Below, piece after piece: positions 3,984 through 14,275 of a stretch of DNA of 38,917 bases. The notes beneath the pieces are model-generated. The model made no database searches and was not told the origin of the DNA. It worked only from the letters and a program-made list of their open reading frames with translations. How positions within the stretch are numbered: position 1 is the first letter of the stretch; each line of letters starts with the position of its first letter. Location: contig JADZDJ010000299.1 in the NCBI GenBank assembly GCA_020851115.1, positions 1 through 38,917 of the forward strand, in the 5' to 3' direction. The position numbers and the translations under genes were made by a program. Origin of the DNA: Pirellulales bacterium (GTDB lineage Bacteria > Planctomycetota > Planctomycetia > Pirellulales > JADZDJ01).

Positions 3984-4491
3984 CGAGGTTCCTTTCATGG
4001 TGGCAATCCAACGTCGATTTGAAGGCGGCATTTTAGGGAAAGTTTTCGTTGGGCCGCAAGGATATTGTGACTCCTTGGCCCTACCACGGCGGTTCCAATT
4101 CGGAGCCATCCCGCCGGAAATCTTGCCGCCGCCACTGCATCCTTACGCGCAATTCGAGGTATCCATCGTCCATGACCGGGCAGAGGATTCGTCTGCCCTG
4201 CGCGATCGCCAGCGGTATTTTGGGGGAATATAGCAGTGGATTCCGGCGTTTTTATTCATGACGCGTCATATTTGCATTCTGTGGCGTCCGCAATCTTTGC
4301 GCCACCGGAACGCCCGAAAATTTAAGACTTTCTGATTCCATTGCTGGTTCGCAGACTTCCGATCTTACGGAATGGCGAGACAGGTGCGCGTGCCTGTCGA
4401 GGCGTCTCTCATCGTCGAATGGGATTGCCCGGTAGGTCGGCGATGGGATTCGCGCCATGCAAAGTGCTGCAACATTGGAGCAATCGTAGCT
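3984..4491. other. Divergent intergenic region between proS and a large gene
   Basis: A 508-base gap between two genes transcribed away from each other, so it should contain both promoters. No convincing -35/-10 pair was seen. The only symmetrical site noted is a 12-base palindrome, listed separately. Open frames extend from both flanking genes into this gap but have no recognisable protein similarity. Confidence 0.6.
4258..4269. promoter_or_regulatory. 12-base perfect palindrome ATGACGCGTCAT, candidate operator
   Basis: ATGACGCGTCAT is perfectly self-complementary. It lies about 275 bases from the proS start and about 220 bases ahead of the gene at 4492. A palindrome of this length in a divergent promoter region could bind a dimeric regulator, but it may also be chance. 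No second copy was noticed nearby. Confidence 0.25.
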
Positions 4492-7083
4492 ATGTCGTCT
4501 GAACGCCGTAGTCCGTGGTGGCCGTATTTGCTGGTGCTAGCAGGTCTGTTTGTGCTGAGCGTGGCCGTGCCCCGCAGGTGGCAGGTCGCCAAAATTGACC
4601 ACCGGCCCAGTAATCCGGCGCACCACAACGTGGCAATGCAGCCGAAGCCAATGCCGGTGCGGCCCGTTATTGTGCCGCCGATGCCAGAATCGAAGAGCGC
4701 TGTCGCCCATCAGACGGACCAGCAACCCGTCGATCGCCATATTCCACCCTTGCCGCCCACGGCGGGGCTGCCAACCGTTGCGACCCATGCCGACCCCGTC
4801 GACGAATTTGCAGCAGTCAAGCCTTGGACCGAATTGGTGTCGCAAAAAATTGCCGACGCGCGGCGATTTCTTGCCGAACAACGGGAAGCAAAGGCTGCGA
4901 TTCAACCATCGTCGTCACAATCATTGGTCGGTGCCCACACCGATGCTGCTTGCGATGGCGAATCAAGGCTGGCCTCGGTGTTAATCCGACGCACGCTCAC
5001 TTCGGGCCAACTCCTGGCGATTCCCGCGGTTACGTGGCCCTTGCCGGAAAGCCTGCTCCATCAACTGGAACGACTCTCGCAATCCCTGGAATGCCGCGAA
5101 TGGGCGATTGCCGCCAAGGAATTGTGCGAATCGCTGGCGGCCACGCCAATCGACGAAACCAGGGACTCGCTGGCGATCGTCGCACAATTACAAACAGTGA
5201 CCGCGCAAGCCGACGGAGTTGCCGGCGAAGTGCATGATCCATATGCCGCGGCTGAGCTTCGTCGAGCGCAATATGCCTTGCAGCGTCGCTTGCTGGCCTG
5301 GGAATTGACGGCAAAAGCCGGCGACCACGGCACGACGTTTGCTAACGTGCTCAGCGGCGACGAGCGGCGCACCAAGTTGGTCAATACGGCCGCTGGTGTA
5401 CGAACCTATTTGGATACGATCGCGCACGGCGATGCCTGGGCAAAATATTTGGCGCTCGACGAAATTGCACGGTTGGCATCGGCTGGATCATCCGCTTCAA
5501 GCGACGAGGTTAGAATCTCCGCCCGGCGCATTCTCAATTTGTTGTCCCCCGTCGAAGCCACACCGGCGCAGCGCCGTGTGTTGGGGGATCAAACGGTTCG
5601 ATCGCTGGCCGAGCAATTGCACGGTCTGGCCAGTGAACCGACCGACAATCGGGAACTGCTGGTGAACATTGAGCGGTACGAGACGAGCCGGCGATCGAGC
5701 GACGCGGTTGCCCTGGTCGAAATTCAGCAACGATTGAACTGGTCTGGCGACGCGACCGATCGAGAACTGGCCAGCCACATCGAGAATCATTACCGCAACG
5801 CCAACATTCGCGCGGCGCTTTCCAAGGAATTGCTCCAGCGTCTGGCGCCCCCGCCCATGACCACTTATGACCAAGTCGCCGAAGTGATTGTTGGTGCGTC
5901 GGTGCAAGGGCAGAGTGTCAACACGATCGAATTCCAAGTAAAGCTAATCCCCGATACACGCCGCATCCACCTGTGGCTCGAAGCATGTGGCATGGTTTTC
6001 TCGCGCACACAATCCTCCAGCGGTCCGGCAACCATGAACAACCGGGGTTCGGCCCATTTCATCGTTCGAAAGGCGGTCCTGCTCGACCAGCAAGGACTCG
6101 GCGTCGGTCAGGCCTCGACTGAAGCCGACACCCGTTCGCAGTTGGTCGGAGTACGCACAAATTTCGATGGCATTCCGCTGGTAGGACCAATGGTCCGCAA
6201 CTATGCCGCCTCGCAATACGACGAAATGCGCGAGCAAGCCCGTTGGGAATCGCGTGAAAAAGTGGCTGCGCGGGCCGGCGAGCGCGTGAATCTCGAAGTC
6301 AACAAGCGTTTGCAGGACGTCGAGGATCGAGTGCGGCGAGAAATACTTGGACCTTTGGCAAATTTGGGCCTGGACCTCGACCCGATTTCGATGGAAACCG
6401 CGGCCGAGCGCGCGACGCTGCGGCTGCGGCTGGCCGGACTGCACCAACTCGGCAGTCACACGGCGCGGCCGCAAGCGCCTTCCGATAGTCTGGCGAGCGT
6501 GCAAATTCACGAATCGGCGCTCAACAATGCGCTGGATCAACTGCAACTTTCTGGCCGTTCGTTCGAGTTGCCCGAACTGTATCGACACTTGGCCAAGCGA
6601 TTGAGCCGCCCAGAACCGAGACTGCCGGCAGACCTGCCCGACGGCGTGCAAATTACGTTTGCTGATCTAGATCCGGTGCGCATCCGTGGCGACGAAGACA
6701 AGTTGCGGCTGACCATGGCGATCAAAGAACTCCGCCAAGGTTCGCGAAGCTGGCACGATTTTGAAATCTCGACGACTTATAAGCCCGAAGTCTACGGCCG
6801 CATCGTCAAGCTCGCGCGCGACGGCATCATCGACCTGGACGGCGAAGCGTACAAAGGCAAAGCGGAGTTCGCCCTGCGCGGCATCTTTAGTAAAATATTA
6901 TCGCGCGAAAAGACACTCAACCTCGTGCCACCGGCAATCGTCGAACATCCCCGCATGGCAGACCTGTGTATTACGCAATGCACCATCGAAGATGGCTGGC
7001 TGGGGATTGCTCTTGGCCCCGATCGCACGATCGTCCGCAGTGACGAAGCGAAGCATCTCATTCCCCAAATTTTGCGCAAATAG
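4492..7083 (+). CDS. Large membrane-anchored protein of unknown function
   Basis: Protein of 863 residues not recognised as any named family. A single hydrophobic segment at residues about 8-26 ('WPYLLVLAGLFVLSVAVP') follows a short basic start, consistent with a signal anchor that leaves the rest outside the cytoplasmic membrane. A Pro-rich stretch (residues 45-80) follows, then a long mainly helical region, then a C-terminal half with beta-rich segments such as 'VQITFADLDPVRIRGDEDKLRL' (truncated here to key residues VQITF, DPVRI, KLRLTM). ATG 4492 is chosen because the hydrophobic segment then lies at the N-terminus and GGAG lies about 12 bases upstream; the frame is open to 4372. It stands alone, divergent from proS. 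The C-terminal half could be a lipid- or ligand-binding fold, which is speculation. Confidence 0.75.
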   Translation: MSSERRSPWWPYLLVLAGLFVLSVAVPRRWQVAKIDHRPSNPAHHNVAMQPKPMPVRPVIVPPMPESKSAVAHQTDQQPVDRHIPPLPPTAGLPTVATHADPVDEFAAVKPWTELVSQKIADARRFLAEQREAKAAIQPSSSQSLVGAHTDAACDGESRLASVLIRRTLTSGQLLAIPAVTWPLPESLLHQLERLSQSLECREWAIAAKELCESLAATPIDETRDSLAIVAQLQTVTAQADGVAGEVHDPYAAAELRRAQYALQRRLLAWELTAKAGDHGTTFANVLSGDERRTKLVNTAAGVRTYLDTIAHGDAWAKYLALDEIARLASAGSSASSDEVRISARRILNLLSPVEATPAQRRVLGDQTVRSLAEQLHGLASEPTDNRELLVNIERYETSRRSSDAVALVEIQQRLNWSGDATDRELASHIENHYRNANIRAALSKELLQRLAPPPMTTYDQVAEVIVGASVQGQSVNTIEFQVKLIPDTRRIHLWLEACGMVFSRTQSSSGPATMNNRGSAHFIVRKAVLLDQQGLGVGQASTEADTRSQLVGVRTNFDGIPLVGPMVRNYAASQYDEMREQARWESREKVAARAGERVNLEVNKRLQDVEDRVRREILGPLANLGLDLDPISMETAAERATLRLRLAGLHQLGSHTARPQAPSDSLASVQIHESALNNALDQLQLSGRSFELPELYRHLAKRLSRPEPRLPADLPDGVQITFADLDPVRIRGDEDKLRLTMAIKELRQGSRSWHDFEISTTYKPEVYGRIVKLARDGIIDLDGEAYKGKAEFALRGIFSKILSREKTLNLVPPAIVEHPRMADLCITQCTIEDGWLGIALGPDRTIVRSDEAKHLIPQILRK

Positions 7084-7503: not shown

Positions 7504-8736
7504 TTGGACTCGATTCTTTCCCATCAATTTGATAACGGGCTTTCGCTCGTCGCCGAGCCGATGCCATCGCTTGAATCCGCGGCAATGACGATCCTTGTTC
7601 CGGCCGGAGCCGTTCACGATTCCACGGACAAATGCGGGCTGGCCACGCTGGCGTGTGAAATGATGCTCCGCGGCTGCGGACCCCGCAGCAGCCGCGAGTT
7701 TATCACCGATCTGGAGAATCTTGGAGTTCAGCGGGGCGAATCGGTCGGCATTTCGCACGCCAGCTTCGGTGCGGCAACGCTGTCGAAAAACCTGCCAGCA
7801 GCAATCAAGATTTTTGCCGACTTGCTCCGCCGACCCCATCTGCCAGCCGATCAATTGGACGCTGGCCGCTTGGTGGTGTTGCAGGAATTGTCGGCGATCG
7901 ACGACGACCCGAGCCATAAGGTCATGCTGGAGCTCAAGCGGCACCACTATCCTGACCCTTGGGGCCGCCCAAGTGAAGGCGAAAAGCCGGCCGTCGAGTC
8001 GATGACCATCGACGATGTCCGCGCGCACTATCAACATTTTTTTCGCCCCAACGGTACGATCATCGGTGTGGCCGGCCGAATCAATTGGCCCGCACTGAGA
8101 GATCAGATTGGCGAGCTATTCGCCGACTGGAAACCGATCGCTGCCGAACTACCGGCCGCAGGAGCGACTGGCAAGCAACTGGAGCATTTTCCGCACGAAT
8201 CGAACCAAACACAAATTGGAATTGCTTACCCGACCGTACCGTATCGGCATGCCGACTATTTTCGCGCATCCGGCGCGGTCGGCGTTCTGAGCGGCGGCAT
8301 GAGTTCGCGGCTGTTCACCGAAGTGCGCGAGAAACGCGGCCTGTGCTATTCGGTTTATGCAAGTTATCACACGCAACGCGAGCGTGCATGCGTGCTCTGC
8401 TACGCTGGCAGCAGTTCCGACCGAGCTCAAGAAACTCTCGATGTCACGCTCGGCGAACTGCAACGACTGGCGAATGGCATCGAAGCCGCGGAACTTGCGC
8501 GACTCAAAGCGCGCGTCAAGAGCTCACTGATTATGCAAGGTGAATCCAGCGCGGCCCGTAGTGGGGCAGTGGCCCGCGACTGGTATCACCTAGGCCGACC
8601 GCGGACGCTGGAGGAACTTGGCAAGCTCGTCGATGAACTGACGGTCGAATCCATTAACGAATATCTACGAGCCAATCCGCCCCAGAATTTTACGGTAGTC
8701 ACCCTCGGCCCAGCGGCACTGAGCGTATCCGCGTAG
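7504..8736 (+). CDS. M16 peptidase-family protein lacking the zinc motif
   Basis: Protein of 410 residues with the two-domain M16 (pitrilysin/MPP) fold. Where active members carry HxxEH, this one reads 'CGLATLACEMMLRG' (about residues 44-57), so the metal ligands are absent. Near residues 275-285 it keeps the conserved 'VREKRGLCYSVYASY', whose Arg and Tyr bind substrate in this family. It is therefore likely the substrate-holding partner of the next gene, which shows the opposite pattern. The start must be TTG 7504: an in-frame TAG at 7489 closes the frame just upstream and the domain begins a few residues in. There is no signal peptide. The gap to the next gene's ATG is 77 bases, consistent with co-transcription. 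Confidence 0.88.
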   Translation: MDSILSHQFDNGLSLVAEPMPSLESAAMTILVPAGAVHDSTDKCGLATLACEMMLRGCGPRSSREFITDLENLGVQRGESVGISHASFGAATLSKNLPAAIKIFADLLRRPHLPADQLDAGRLVVLQELSAIDDDPSHKVMLELKRHHYPDPWGRPSEGEKPAVESMTIDDVRAHYQHFFRPNGTIIGVAGRINWPALRDQIGELFADWKPIAAELPAAGATGKQLEHFPHESNQTQIGIAYPTVPYRHADYFRASGAVGVLSGGMSSRLFTEVREKRGLCYSVYASYHTQRERACVLCYAGSSSDRAQETLDVTLGELQRLANGIEAAELARLKARVKSSLIMQGESSAARSGAVARDWYHLGRPRTLEELGKLVDELTVESINEYLRANPPQNFTVVTLGPAALSVSA

Positions 8737-8813
8737 GAGACGAACCACTGCGTCGATCGAATCGCGCTGGAACATTGAACGACAGATTGCACCCGATACA
8801 ACGCGAATCTCCC

Positions 8814-10049
8814 ATGCCCGAATTTCGAACGGCCGAACTCAAGAACGGCCTGCAAATCATCGCTGAATGCAGCGACGACGCCTATTCGACGGCCCTTGGA
8901 TTTTTCGTCAACACCGGTTCGCGCGATGAAACCGATGAAGTTTCCGGCGTTAGCCATTTTCTCGAGCACATGGTCTTCAAAGGCACACCCCAGCGCAACG
9001 CCGACGACGTGAATCGTGAGTTCGACGAAATGGGGGCCCACTACAATGCCTTCACCAATGAGGAAAACACGGTCTATTACGCCGCCGTCCTGCCAGAATT
9101 TCAGACTCCAGCCGTTGAGTTGCTCGCCGACATCATGCGACCGGCTTTGCGCGAGGACGATTTCTGCACCGAGAAGAAGGTGATTCTCGAAGAAATCAAA
9201 ATGTACGAGGACCAGCCGCCGTATGGGGCCGATGAGAAATGCCGCGCCTGGTTTTTCGGCCAGCACCCACTGTCAAAAAGCGTACTTGGTACTGCCGATA
9301 GCGTCGGCCAGTTGCGCGTCGATCAGATGCGCGAGTATTTTGCCCGCCGCTATAGCCCGAAGAACGTCGTCCTCGCTGCAGCGGGGAAGATCGATTTCGA
9401 TGAGCTTTGCCGCACGGCCGATCAGGTTTGTGGGCGCTGGGAGGCAATCGATTCCGCGCGTGAAGTTCTTCCCGCCGCTCCCAATATCGGCTTCCATTTA
9501 GTGCATAAGGAATCCTCTGTTCAAGAATACGGCATGTTGATGAGCCTCGGTCCTGCGGCGGTTGATGCCGACCGCTATGCCGCGAAACTGCTGGCCACCG
9601 TGCTGGGAGACGATTCTGGCAGCCGCCTGTATTGGGAACTCGTGGATCCTGGCCATGCCGAGCATTGCAGTTTGCACCATCACGATTATATCGGTGCCGG
9701 CATGTTTCTGACATATATGAGCAGCGATCCAGAGTTCGCCGCTGACAATTTGCACCGCATCGCCAAAGTGTACAAAGACGTGGAAAGCTTCGGCATCACG
9801 CAGGCCGAACTCGATCAGGCCAAGAGCAAAATCAATTCCCGCGTGGTCCTGTCCAGCGAACGCCCTCGTGGCCGACTCTTCACGGTCGGAGGCAATTGGA
9901 TTCAGCGTCGCGAATACCGCAGCGTCCGCAACGATCTGGACGCCGTCGAGGCCGTCTCGCTGGCCGAAATCGCCACAGTGCTAAAGAAATACCCGCTGAC
10001 CCAGGCCACCACTTGCGTGGTTGGCCCTCTGAGCGAGTTGGCCCACTAA
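8814..10049 (+). CDS. M16 zinc peptidase, catalytic subunit
   Basis: Protein of 411 residues of the M16 family. The inverted zinc motif HFLEH is intact (His48, Glu51, His52), and the downstream metal-ligand Glu lies in 'VILEEIKMYEDQP' at residues 126-127. At the place where single-chain members keep REKRGLAYS, this protein has 'VDPGHAEHCSLHHHDY', so the usual substrate-binding Arg/Tyr pair is not conserved. Together with the preceding gene this fits a heterodimer in which one chain provides zinc and the other binds substrate, as known for mitochondrial processing peptidase and a Sphingomonas M16 pair. ATG 8814 ('MPEFRTAELKNG') is preferred over TTG 8775. The frame ends at 10049. No signal peptide is visible, so a cytoplasmic role in peptide turnover is likely. 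Confidence 0.92.
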   Translation: MPEFRTAELKNGLQIIAECSDDAYSTALGFFVNTGSRDETDEVSGVSHFLEHMVFKGTPQRNADDVNREFDEMGAHYNAFTNEENTVYYAAVLPEFQTPAVELLADIMRPALREDDFCTEKKVILEEIKMYEDQPPYGADEKCRAWFFGQHPLSKSVLGTADSVGQLRVDQMREYFARRYSPKNVVLAAAGKIDFDELCRTADQVCGRWEAIDSAREVLPAAPNIGFHLVHKESSVQEYGMLMSLGPAAVDADRYAAKLLATVLGDDSGSRLYWELVDPGHAEHCSLHHHDYIGAGMFLTYMSSDPEFAADNLHRIAKVYKDVESFGITQAELDQAKSKINSRVVLSSERPRGRLFTVGGNWIQRREYRSVRNDLDAVEAVSLAEIATVLKKYPLTQATTCVVGPLSELAH

Positions 10050-10225: not shown

Positions 10226-10516
10226 ATGGTAACCTCGGCAACCGTGCGACGAACGTTGCATTATTCTGGCCGCGTTCAAGGCGTCGGATTTCGATATACG
10301 GCTCAGCGGATTGCCACAAGCTTTTCGGTCACCGGATATGTGCAAAACTTGTCTGACGGCCGCGTGCGGCTAGTTGCCGAAGGGGAGCCTGCGGAACTCG
10401 ACGATTTTCTCGGTAAGATTGCCGAAACCATGGGCGACTATATCCGAAACTTCGAAACCTTTGCTTCTTCCTCGACGGGTGAGTTTCAAGGGTTCAGAGT
10501 TCAGGGCTCAGCATAG
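10226..10516 (+). CDS. acyP: Acylphosphatase
   Basis: Protein of 96 residues, the usual length for acylphosphatase, which hydrolyses carboxyl-phosphate bonds such as those of acetyl phosphate and carbamoyl phosphate. The phosphate-binding loop 'GRVQGVGFRY' carries catalytic Arg23, and 'GYVQNLSDGRV' carries catalytic Asn41, matching the positions in well-studied members. A hydrophilic Ser-rich C-terminus follows. ATG 10226 is the natural start. It lies 176 bases after the M16 pair and 112 bases ahead of the permease gene, so a shared transcript is possible but not shown. Confidence 0.95.
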   Translation: MVTSATVRRTLHYSGRVQGVGFRYTAQRIATSFSVTGYVQNLSDGRVRLVAEGEPAELDDFLGKIAETMGDYIRNFETFASSSTGEFQGFRVQGSA

Positions 10517-10628: not shown

Positions 10629-12179
10629 ATGCATACGCTTGCCATGACGCCTTTGCTGGGAAACATCACGGCTTGGCTCACTCCGATTTGGCTCGTCGGT
10701 ACCGGTTGTCTCTGCGGGTTGATCTCGCTGGCCATTCTATATGGAGTTGTCCGATTGGTGGCTCCCGGTGCGGCGGCCGTCATTCGCAGCAGCCTACGTG
10801 AAGGGTTTATGCTCCCCGTGCTCGGCTTGGCCGTCGGTCTGGCTGCATTTGCGGTGATTTCGGTGTTGCTCTCGGTCGCAAAAGTCGGGTATTTGCCACT
10901 CGACGATCTCTTTCGTTCGCTCGAACGTTTACCACAATCGGACCACTTCGAAACAACCTTCGATGTCCCCGCGCTGCCTGCGGGGGAACGGGGGATCGAG
11001 AAGCAAGAGTTTGCGCTCGATTTTCGCCCGGCCGAAATGCGATCGGTCGAAATCAAATCGGACCAAGACCTGACGGTGCAATTGCGTGACGCCAGCACTT
11101 ACATGCCAGGCGCGTTGCAATTGAAGATCGATCTGAAACCGAATGAGCCGTGGACGTGGCCTAACGAAAAGATCAAGGAGTCGAGCAACCCATTTATGGG
11201 TCGCAGGGCGACGTTTTACGTGAACAATCCCGCCGAGACCGACGCCAAGCTGCAAGTCCGCGGCGTGACCCGCGAAGAATATCCGCAGGTCGCCGTTGTT
11301 CCGGAAATTGCCGTGCTGCTGTTTGGAATTGTAGTGCTTTATCTGATCCTACAGTTGGTCTTGCCGAAAGTCATGGCCATTGCCGCCGCAACGGCGAAAG
11401 AAGCCATTTCACAGCCGCTGTACCAAATCGTCCTCGCCCTGGGCGCTTTTGCACTGATCATTTCCGTCTACATGCCTTATTACACCTTGGGCGAAGACGT
11501 GAAAATGCTGAAGATGGTCGCACTGTCGCTGATTACTATGCTCGGCGTATTGATGGCCGCGTGGACCGCCAGCGTCTCGGTGTCGGAAGAAATCGAAGGC
11601 CGCACGGCGTTGACGGTGCTTTCCAAACCACTGGGGCGCATTCAGTTTTTGCTCGGCAAATTTTTTGGCGTAGCGCAGTCCGTGTCGCTGCTTTATATCT
11701 TCTTGGGCGCGCTGTTCCTCATCACCGTTTCGGGAAAAGTCGTCTATGACACCCGTGAGACCGCGATGCCCGACGCCGCCTGGACCGATTGCTTCGACGA
11801 AATGGAAGGAATCATTCCCGGTTTGGTTCTGTCGTATTTGACGACGATCGTGATGACATCGATTAGCGTGGCGATTTCCACGCGGCTGTCGATGCTGCCG
11901 AATCTGATCATCAGCTTCTCAATTTACGCCCTCGGCAATCTAGCGCCGATGCTCGTGCAGTCGAAAGTGGACGACCCCACGGGCATCGTTCGCTTTGTCG
12001 GCCATTTCTTGGCGACGATCTTGCCGGTGCTGGAGAACTTCGACATCCAAGCCGGAGTTTCCTCGAATCGTGGAGTCCCTTGGAGCTACGTCGGATTGGC
12101 GGTGGTATACTGTTTCTTATACAGCACCGTGGCGATGCTCCTCGCTCTGGCGCTGTTTGAAGACCGAGATTTAGCATGA
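10629..12179 (+). CDS. ABC-2 type transporter permease
   Basis: Integral membrane protein of 516 residues. Two hydrophobic segments lie near residues 15-40 and 60-85. An extracytoplasmic domain of about 130 residues follows, then six or so further segments from about residue 225 to the end. The signature of ABC-2 permeases is the cytoplasmic 'SEEIEGRTALTVLSKPLGR' followed by 'FLLGKFFG', which couples to the ATPase. Families of this kind export polysaccharides, drugs or lipids or act in gliding-type systems; the cargo is unknown. No ordinary ATP-binding gene is adjacent. The only ABC protein nearby is the next gene, whose nucleotide site is degenerate. ATG 10629 or ATG 10644 could be the start; neither has a clear ribosome-binding site. 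Confidence 0.82.
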   Translation: MHTLAMTPLLGNITAWLTPIWLVGTGCLCGLISLAILYGVVRLVAPGAAAVIRSSLREGFMLPVLGLAVGLAAFAVISVLLSVAKVGYLPLDDLFRSLERLPQSDHFETTFDVPALPAGERGIEKQEFALDFRPAEMRSVEIKSDQDLTVQLRDASTYMPGALQLKIDLKPNEPWTWPNEKIKESSNPFMGRRATFYVNNPAETDAKLQVRGVTREEYPQVAVVPEIAVLLFGIVVLYLILQLVLPKVMAIAAATAKEAISQPLYQIVLALGAFALIISVYMPYYTLGEDVKMLKMVALSLITMLGVLMAAWTASVSVSEEIEGRTALTVLSKPLGRIQFLLGKFFGVAQSVSLLYIFLGALFLITVSGKVVYDTRETAMPDAAWTDCFDEMEGIIPGLVLSYLTTIVMTSISVAISTRLSMLPNLIISFSIYALGNLAPMLVQSKVDDPTGIVRFVGHFLATILPVLENFDIQAGVSSNRGVPWSYVGLAVVYCFLYSTVAMLLALALFEDRDLA

Positions 12180-12322
12180 TGCATATGCAGTGCGCCTGGT
12201 AGGATCGTGCCTGGTGATGGGTGGATGCAGCCGCGGGCACCCTTCGTGGAAGCAAGGAAGGCGAGCGATCGCACACCTGGCAAGAGCCGACCAGACACCG
12301 GACCACCAGACATTTCCCCGTC

Positions 12323-14275
12323 ATGCCCAATCCGTCGTTCGATCGAGCCCGCCGATTCGGTTGTCGTGCGGCGGGATTCCCTCTGGCAGTTTATCTTTCG
12401 GGGCTGATCGCCGCAGCGATTCTGATTCTGCTCGTCTTGCTGATTCCCATTTTGTTTGAATTGCTCGCTGGTGGCGGCACGCTGAACGCGCCCAACGCCG
12501 ATCGAGCGGCGCTGCGTCAGTTGGGAGTCGAACCTTCCTTGCACGATAAAGGTTCGGACATCTACGAACATCATGGATTGTTGCCAACGGTGTGGAGGCT
12601 GCGCAAGTCGTGGATCGGACCCGCTTATGTCGCCGTTTATCGATCGTTTCCACCGGTGCGGAACAACCATTTGTGCCTGCTCGTCATCGTTGTCGCGGGC
12701 TGTCTGCTGATTATTTTAGCGGGATGTGCCCTGGTTTGGCTGGAAACGTCCGTTCATCGAGGCGCGCTGCGCGCTGCGACCACCTTGCGCCGTCAGATTC
12801 ACGATCAATCGCAACGCCTTGGCTCGAGCGATCTGTTCGTAGGGCAGCGAACGAGCGAACGCGAATTATTCACTGACGATGTCACTGCGGTCCGCCGCGG
12901 TTTGGTCGCCTGGTGGCGCATGGTGCCACACGGGGTCGTATTCTTTGTCGCCATGCTGGCACTGGCGTTCTCTGTAAATTTCTGGTTGACCTTGACTACA
13001 GCGCTGCTTGTCGCACTGCTTTGGTGGATCTTCAATGAAGCCCGCCGCCGTTTGCTCGACCGGGAACTGCTGCTAACCGCCGCCGCCGCCGAGCGGTTTT
13101 TATCGCCCGTACTCGAGCATTTAGAGCAGCATCGCGCCATCGCCAATCTCGCATCGGATCTACCGTCCGAACGTCGCCAGTTCGACGAAGCGCTACAGCG
13201 CCACGACGACGCAGCCCTGGCGCGCGAGGCGACCGCCGCCAGAGTCATGCCGCTGATGACAATCTTTGTGCTGCTGGGCGCCAGCTTTGTGGTGCTCTTG
13301 GCCGGCTACAACGTGCTGGGCGAACCACCGCGCGTTTCGCTTCCCGAGGCTGTGCTGTTGGGAGTGGCGCTATGTGCGATCGGCTATCCGTTTTATCGCT
13401 TCGAGCGACTCCTGGAGATGTTGCCGTCAGCCGACGAAGCGGCCGAACGGATTTTTGTGTATCTCGATCGCGAGCCACGCGTTGGCCAATTGCCCCATGC
13501 GATTCCCTTGGAGCACGCTTGGCGACAAATCGCGTTCCAGAATGTCACGCTAGCCGATATGGAGGGACGCTTGCTGCTGGACGGAGTCAGCTTTGCTTTG
13601 CCACACGGCAGCCAGTCGGTGATTTTTTGCTCCGACGATGCCACCGGCCGCGCCATCGCAGCGCTGCTTACGCGATTTTGCGATCCGGCCGCCGGGCGAG
13701 TGCTGTTCGACAAACAAGATCTGGCGCACGTCACGCTCCATTCCGCGCGCAACAACACCGCCGTTGTTCTTTCCAATCACCTGCTTACGAGCGGCAGTCT
13801 GCGAGAAAACGTCGTCGGGGCGGTCGCCGAAGCGACCGCGTCGCAGGATGCGAGGATTATCGACGCTCTCAAGCAAGTACACGCTTACGAATTTGTGCAA
13901 TCGATGCCCGAAGGATTAGAAACGCCGCTCGGTTCTCAAGGCATGACCCTCTCGGTCGGCCAGGGAATTCGGTTGGCGTTGGCCCGCACGGTCATGCAAA
14001 ACCCGAACGTGCTGGTGATCGAAGAACCGCGCGACGACCTCGACCAAGTAACCGCCGAGCGAGTCGCCGATGCGCTGGAGAAAATCGGCCAAAATCGCAC
14101 GCTGGTGATTCTCGCCCGCCGCTTGGCGACCCTGCGAGCCGCGCAGCGAATCCTCTTTTTCCACGACGGCCGACTCTTGGCCGTTGGCGACCACCAAGAA
14201 CTCCTGCACACCAACGACATCTACCGACATCTAAACTACGTCCGATTCAACGAATTTCGCGATTCGGTGAAGTAA
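12323..14275 (+). CDS. ABC exporter-like protein with degenerate ATPase domain
   Basis: Protein of about 650 residues with the fused membrane-ATPase layout of ABC exporters. Hydrophobic segments lie near residues 20-45, 115-140, 205-240 and 310-355, with the nucleotide-binding domain from about residue 400. The key motifs have drifted. The Walker A loop reads 'CSDDATGRA' where GxxGxGKST is expected, losing the Gly residues and the Lys. The Q-loop region reads 'VVLSNHLL'. The signature is LSVGQ in place of LSGGQ. Walker B ends in 'VIEEP', with Glu for Asp. The H-loop reads 'LARRLATL', with Arg for His. ATP hydrolysis looks unlikely, though overall length and fold are kept. ATG 12323 is chosen because the first membrane segment then follows closely; GTG 12221 is also open. 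It lies 143 bases after the ABC-2 permease. Confidence 0.85.
   Translation: MPNPSFDRARRFGCRAAGFPLAVYLSGLIAAAILILLVLLIPILFELLAGGGTLNAPNADRAALRQLGVEPSLHDKGSDIYEHHGLLPTVWRLRKSWIGPAYVAVYRSFPPVRNNHLCLLVIVVAGCLLIILAGCALVWLETSVHRGALRAATTLRRQIHDQSQRLGSSDLFVGQRTSERELFTDDVTAVRRGLVAWWRMVPHGVVFFVAMLALAFSVNFWLTLTTALLVALLWWIFNEARRRLLDRELLLTAAAAERFLSPVLEHLEQHRAIANLASDLPSERRQFDEALQRHDDAALAREATAARVMPLMTIFVLLGASFVVLLAGYNVLGEPPRVSLPEAVLLGVALCAIGYPFYRFERLLEMLPSADEAAERIFVYLDREPRVGQLPHAIPLEHAWRQIAFQNVTLADMEGRLLLDGVSFALPHGSQSVIFCSDDATGRAIAALLTRFCDPAAGRVLFDKQDLAHVTLHSARNNTAVVLSNHLLTSGSLRENVVGAVAEATASQDARIIDALKQVHAYEFVQSMPEGLETPLGSQGMTLSVGQGIRLALARTVMQNPNVLVIEEPRDDLDQVTAERVADALEKIGQNRTLVILARRLATLRAAQRILFFHDGRLLAVGDHQELLHTNDIYRHLNYVRFNEFRDSVK

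Follow-up and report, generated by a model that had tools for sequence, protein, structure and literature searches.

An ABC exporter family without nucleotide-binding motifs is kept under selection in Planctomycetota, nearly always beside an orphan NosY-like permease

The ATPase motifs are what defines an ATP-binding cassette (ABC) transporter, and the exceptions known to us keep at least one working site per dimer. ABC-exporter folds can be used otherwise than as pumps, as in CFTR and SUR, in which ATP binding is kept, and FtsX and other ABC-type membrane proteins are signalling scaffolds, which provides a precedent for a non-transport ABC-type complex. Among type I exporters, a single degenerate nucleotide site is found in TM287/288, TmrAB and MsRv1273c/72c (reviewed in PMC7756269). 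Here we describe an exporter-like protein, hereafter the pseudo-exporter, encoded in a 38,917-nucleotide stretch of DNA (the window; contig JADZDJ010000299.1 of assembly GCA_020851115.1) from a bacterium of the order Pirellulales, class Planctomycetia. It consists of one transmembrane domain (TMD) and one nucleotide-binding domain (NBD), and the evidence gives good support to the view that it is a dead exporter that selection has kept. Its gene is an intact open reading frame (ORF) with the following features:

12323..14275, + strand: pseudo-ABC exporter of 650 residues, one TMD and one NBD, all nucleotide-binding motifs lost.
13628..13654, + strand: former Walker A motif or P-loop, residues 436-444, reading CSDDATGRA where the canonical motif is GPNGCGKST (alignment and model).
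13772..13774, + strand: position of the former Q-loop Gln, now Ser484 (alignment).
13949..13963, + strand: former ABC signature, LSVGQ, residues 543-547 (alignment).
14009..14029, + strand: altered Walker B, VLVIEEP, residues 563-569, with Asp changed to Glu and the next Glu kept (alignment).
14117..14119, + strand: former H-loop His, now Arg599, followed by Arg600 (alignment).
14219..14251, + strand: C-terminal family signature, IYRHLNYVRFN, residues 633-643 (alignment).

In alignment, the closest homologues begin at the same place as the ATG at 12323 (MPNPSF, MPYPAF and MAYPSF), and a GTG at 12221, which opens the same frame, has no support as a start. An earlier note on this DNA, made from the letters of the sequence, had described a long intact frame in which five motifs are lost. 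The frame indeed runs to 650 residues, and Pfam recognises both exporter halves in it: ABC_membrane matches residues 122-332 (1e-7) and ABC_tran matches residues 445-569 (4e-12), the latter beginning at profile position 27 and thus without the start of the Walker A region. The closest full-length NCBIfam profile is that of MsbA (TIGR02203), reached with 204 bits, well under its cut-off of 602. The protein has the make-up of a type I ABC exporter half-transporter, a six-helix N-terminal TMD followed by a C-terminal ABC-fold NBD, and lacks a working Walker A, Walker B, signature, Q-loop and H-loop; alignment confirms all five losses that had been named (Walker A, the LSVGQ signature, Glu in Walker B, the Q-loop and Arg in the H-loop). 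Modelled alone with AlphaFold2, the protein is predicted to be a complete exporter protomer, with a mean predicted local distance difference test score (pLDDT) of 86.5. In comparison with exporters of the PDB (TmrAB, MsbA, Atm1 and ABCB-type), the model reaches Z scores of 28.7-31, and the PDB matches span residues 1-648. In the modelled P-loop region the strand stops at residue 436 and a helix starts already at residue 439, so that the phosphate-binding loop is absent from the prediction.

The same losses extend to the relatives of this protein. Motifs were counted in 66 relatives (the window protein and 65 others) and in 26 canonical exporters; as a single genus contributes 13 of the 66, the counts are not wholly independent. 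No relative has a complete GK[S/T] or an LSGGQ signature, two having LSAGQ. The P-loop contains no glycine in 40 relatives and one in 25, and it carries an acidic residue in 61 of the 66 compared with none of the 26 canonical exporters. The Walker B Asp is retained in a single relative and replaced by Glu in 53. The degree of stripping varies among homologues, the Q-loop Gln and the H-loop His each being kept in 15. Because 65 further relatives share the losses, chance is excluded as their source. Close homologues that keep GKS/T or LSGGQ would have pointed to a single decaying gene; none was found, the motifs being lost in close and distant homologues and in every family and order sampled. 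Candidate canonical relatives inside the pseudo-exporter clade were likewise rejected, as there are none among the 66. On the other hand, the family has features of its own: a Glu after the Walker B Asp position in all 66 relatives, then a Pro in 64, giving the form E-E-P in 53, and a C-terminal tail with [YF]RH in 63 and [YF]RHxxYxxF in 62, a tail that occurs in 0 of the 26 canonical exporters.

The invariant Glu after Walker B, together with an Arg next to the H-loop position (65/66) and a Walker A lysine that survives in 7 of the 66, leaves some room for the idea that ATP or another ligand is still bound via a remodelled, non-canonical P-loop. We consider this very unlikely, since the glycine-rich loop is absent, the P-loop is nearly always acidic, the signature is gone and a helix is modelled at the place of the phosphate loop.

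Clear orthologues, all without the motifs, are found in the two other genomes of the host's family and in at least eight further genomes of its order, at identities from 53% to about 28%, and the pseudo-exporter is present in at least five families of the order. A search with an orthologue profile detects proteins at E <= 1e-105 in 181 of 215 genomes (our own count of the sample) sampled from other orders of the class, and the sequences fetched and read from those other orders also lack the motifs. In a phylum-wide sample of 199 genomes, ten matched above that threshold, all from the host's class. The gene seemed at first to be missing from most of the host's order, a view that had to be revised, since one family of the order (f16) has a strongly diverged version, in which even Walker B is lost and the C-terminal tail is kept, and which adjoins the permease described below in 6 of 7 loci checked. 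In an unrooted maximum-likelihood tree of 46 pseudo-exporters and 26 canonical sequences, the two groups are split on one branch with a support of 100, and within the pseudo-exporter group the tree mostly tracks family and order, two rows having very long branches. Taken together, these sequences indicate that the family has a single origin and vertical inheritance, that the ATPase engine was lost once, before the host's class diversified, and that the family is limited, as far as sampled, to this class of Planctomycetota.

The gene is also under strong constraint. In close species pairs of one genus, the ratio of nonsynonymous to synonymous substitution rates (dN/dS) lies at 0.05-0.09 across the full gene and at 0.018-0.064 in the dead NBD; high values, which the earlier note had named as the mark of a gene without retained function, were not seen. 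In the same pairs the upstream permease has a dN/dS lower still, and in most of them dN is lower in the NBD than in the TMD. The same slower change of the NBD relative to the TMD is found in the family of the window's host, although dS there approaches saturation. Along the NBD, the P-loop and the signature belong to the weaker stretches, and conservation is highest at Walker B, in the H-loop strand and at the C-terminus, from which it follows that constraint was lifted from the nucleotide site and not from the rest of the domain frame. The degenerate motifs, taken alone, could suggest a single gene or pseudogene decaying in this lineage. This explanation has a negligible probability, because the ORFs are intact in all 46 relatives of the tree, which come from many families and share the same losses, and dN/dS stays below 0.1 in close pairs; local decay is thereby refuted. 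Motif loss throughout the clade together with a very low dN/dS thus argues for a retained function. As the sequences show, the fold has been held under strong purifying selection since the engine was lost, and the family has gained the E-E-P form and the C-terminal YRHxxYxxF. Such selection, combined with a near-constant place beside the same transporter gene, makes it very likely that the pseudo-exporter has a function for which it requires no ATP itself.

That transporter gene, together with a short gene preceding it, lies directly upstream:

10226..10516, + strand: acylphosphatase of 96 residues, first gene of a conserved trio (Pfam PF00708, 1.5e-19, with the VQGVGFR motif).
10629..12179, + strand: NosY-like ABC-2 permease of 516 residues, with extra N-terminal transmembrane helices and a predicted beta domain at about residues 105-215 (PDB, Foldseek and Pfam).

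The permease core has the ABC2_membrane_2/NosY fold. Specifically, it matches NosY by PDB sequence search (E 4.6e-4), the top seven Foldseek hits of its model are NosY chains, and 10 of 10 permease members match PF12679 (ABC2_membrane_2), with 7e-10 at best and 0.0016, under the gathering score, for the window member. The pLDDT of the permease model is just 69.8, too weak for arguments about an interface. The N-terminal extension (about residues 1-230) is absent from the permeases of about 300 residues in other orders. Of 246 genomes of the host's order, 234 have just one copy of the permease gene.

The earlier note had placed an ABC-2 permease directly ahead of the pseudo-exporter with no ordinary ATPase beside it, and both points hold. 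The gap between the permease end (12179) and the pseudo-exporter start (12323) is 143 bases. GxxGxGK[ST] and an ABC signature do not occur together in any ORF of the window, and an intact same-strand ABC ATPase, such as a NosF-type enzyme of the same operon, occurs in the fetched flanks of 3 of 80 permease loci and is adjacent in none. The possibility that strict motifs had overlooked a neighbouring ATPase was rejected, because the ATPases detected with an NBD profile and relaxed motifs all lay far off or on the opposite strand. Both genes are present together in 43 loci, and in each of these the pseudo-exporter lies downstream of the permease on the same strand, mostly 30-260 bases away. Loci across the class repeat the arrangement acylphosphatase, permease, pseudo-exporter, with the acylphosphatase usually ahead of the permease, and the complete trio is also found in three metagenome-assembled genomes of Pirellulaceae or Planctomycetaceae. 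Pairwise distances of the permease and the pseudo-exporter correlate at r = 0.75-0.80, and those with the acylphosphatase at 0.36-0.48. Among permease matches outside the class, across the phylum, an acylphosphatase stands alongside in two and an ABC exporter beside none.

These flanks also bear on whether the pseudo-exporter pairs, as the degenerate half, with a canonical half-exporter encoded at another place in the genome. Heterodimers of this type, with a single degenerate site, are frequent among exporters (PMC7756269), and the same genomes hold canonical half-exporters. However, the canonical exporter occurs in genomes with and without the pseudo-exporter, and within the flanks examined no locus has a canonical half adjoining the pseudo-exporter or the permease. 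Moreover, the family has lost Walker A and the signature in one protein, so by the composite-site rule (PMC7756269) neither site of a dimer would be complete and no consensus composite site is left; a canonical partner could not complete a standard site with a P-loop that is stripped of its glycine-rich character, usually acidic and is modelled as the start of a helix, and with the signature gone. We therefore regard such a heterodimer as improbable.

We propose instead, at slightly better than even confidence, that the pseudo-exporter may be an ATP-free structural or regulatory partner of the orphan NosY-like permease. The protein would neither bind nor hydrolyse ATP in the usual way. It would dimerise via its TMD, the conserved NBD frame and the C-terminal tail, and the dimer would serve the upstream permease as a scaffold without catalytic activity or as a regulatory subunit; the permease, having no adjoining ATPase, would either rely on an ATPase from another locus or need none. 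The weakest step is a possible modulation of the system by the acylphosphatase, through removal of acyl-phosphates. The evidence that suggests a partnership with the permease is synteny. The earlier note had raised such a role; the link to the permease stands, reinforced by the class-wide gene order, and the partnership itself stays a matter of inference, given how often the permease occurs without the pseudo-exporter. A bolder version, which we put forward tentatively as a real possibility, is that an exporter was converted once, in the class ancestor, to an ATP-free obligate subunit of an ATPase-less ABC-2 permease, forming a hybrid complex of two ABC transporter types in which the dead NBDs would serve as a docking or gating platform replacing the motor.

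Several observations weigh against a partnership. In most genomes of the host's order the permease is present without the pseudo-exporter, which implies that it does not depend on it; in many of these genomes the permease faces a convergent oxidoreductase gene with no pseudo-exporter between, which looks like a lineage loss of the pseudo-exporter. In four loci of other orders (L159, L160, L163 and L169, e.g. in families f23 and f26), the pseudo-exporter has no recognised permease within 4-5 kb, and in four loci of the host's order (L182, L097, L106 and L057) it has other neighbours. Additionally, the weaker distance correlation of the acylphosphatase may be noise from so short a gene, and the absence of ATP binding is read from sequence and a model. 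Much of this would suit a stand-alone, ATP-independent homodimer, such as a facilitator, a lipid or ligand binder or a membrane scaffold, that only shares an operon with the permease: the TMD and the full fold are retained, the pseudo-exporter lies away from a recognised permease in some genomes, and the permease is often kept without it. We hold such a homodimer to be a rather doubtful explanation, though one of appreciable weight, because the same-strand adjacency recurs across the class over a large divergence, which is unusual for unrelated functions.

Some features of the wider neighbourhood accompany these loci. At L159, L160, L163 and L169 the permease may be too diverged for the model or separated from the pseudo-exporter. 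The pseudo-exporters away from the permease at L097 (4683-6554), L106 (2303-4138) and L057 (6557-8530) are diverged, and upstream of that at L097 lies a fused glycosyltransferase 2-methyltransferase. Downstream of the trio, a convergent gene set, the first gene of which encodes a GFO/IDH/MocA oxidoreductase, faces the permease or the pseudo-exporter at L031, L032, L035, L037 and many loci of the order, and is not present in the window. The acylphosphatase sits between an upstream M16 peptidase and the permease; it is missing from the earlier account, in which it was overlooked because the gene is short. The M16-family peptidases form a pair upstream of the trio (7504-8736 and 8775-10049, + strand), and the pair also precedes the permease in family f1, at one f17 locus (L033) and at two f8 loci (L127 and L131). 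Further upstream, a 903-residue ORF (4372-7083, + strand) has no Pfam match at 0.001.

A family in which all motifs were lost once, and in which strong selection then held the fold in most of the class genomes sampled, offers a natural experiment on the abilities of the ABC fold without ATP. It also points to an unrecognised planctomycete envelope system of an acylphosphatase, an orphan permease and a dead exporter, which will be annotated automatically as an ordinary ABC transporter. Although degeneracy of a single site is well documented among exporters, we found no description in the open-access literature of a whole family that lost every motif and is still selected, nor anything relevant on a planctomycete acylphosphatase-permease system, which does not prove that none exists.

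In comparison with known systems, the pseudo-exporter family shares with TM287/288, TmrAB and MsRv1273c/72c the TMD-NBD fold and departures from consensus motifs that are kept by selection. Those exporters keep one full catalytic site, whereas in the pseudo-exporter family Walker A, the Walker B Asp and the signature are all lost and no canonical partner adjoins. The MsbA-type homodimeric half-exporters have the same domain order and provide the best full-length NCBIfam match; unlike them, the pseudo-exporter falls far under the TIGR02203 cut-off and has no ATPase motifs. CFTR and SUR bind ATP, for which the pseudo-exporter family lacks the motifs, and FtsX belongs to a different permease class and, unlike the pseudo-exporter, has an active ATPase partner, FtsE. 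The permease, in turn, resembles NosDFY in that its core is like NosY in sequence and predicted fold, and differs from it in having no NosF-like ATPase beside it, no NosD noticed there, an additional membrane and beta domain at the N-terminus, and a dead exporter next to it.
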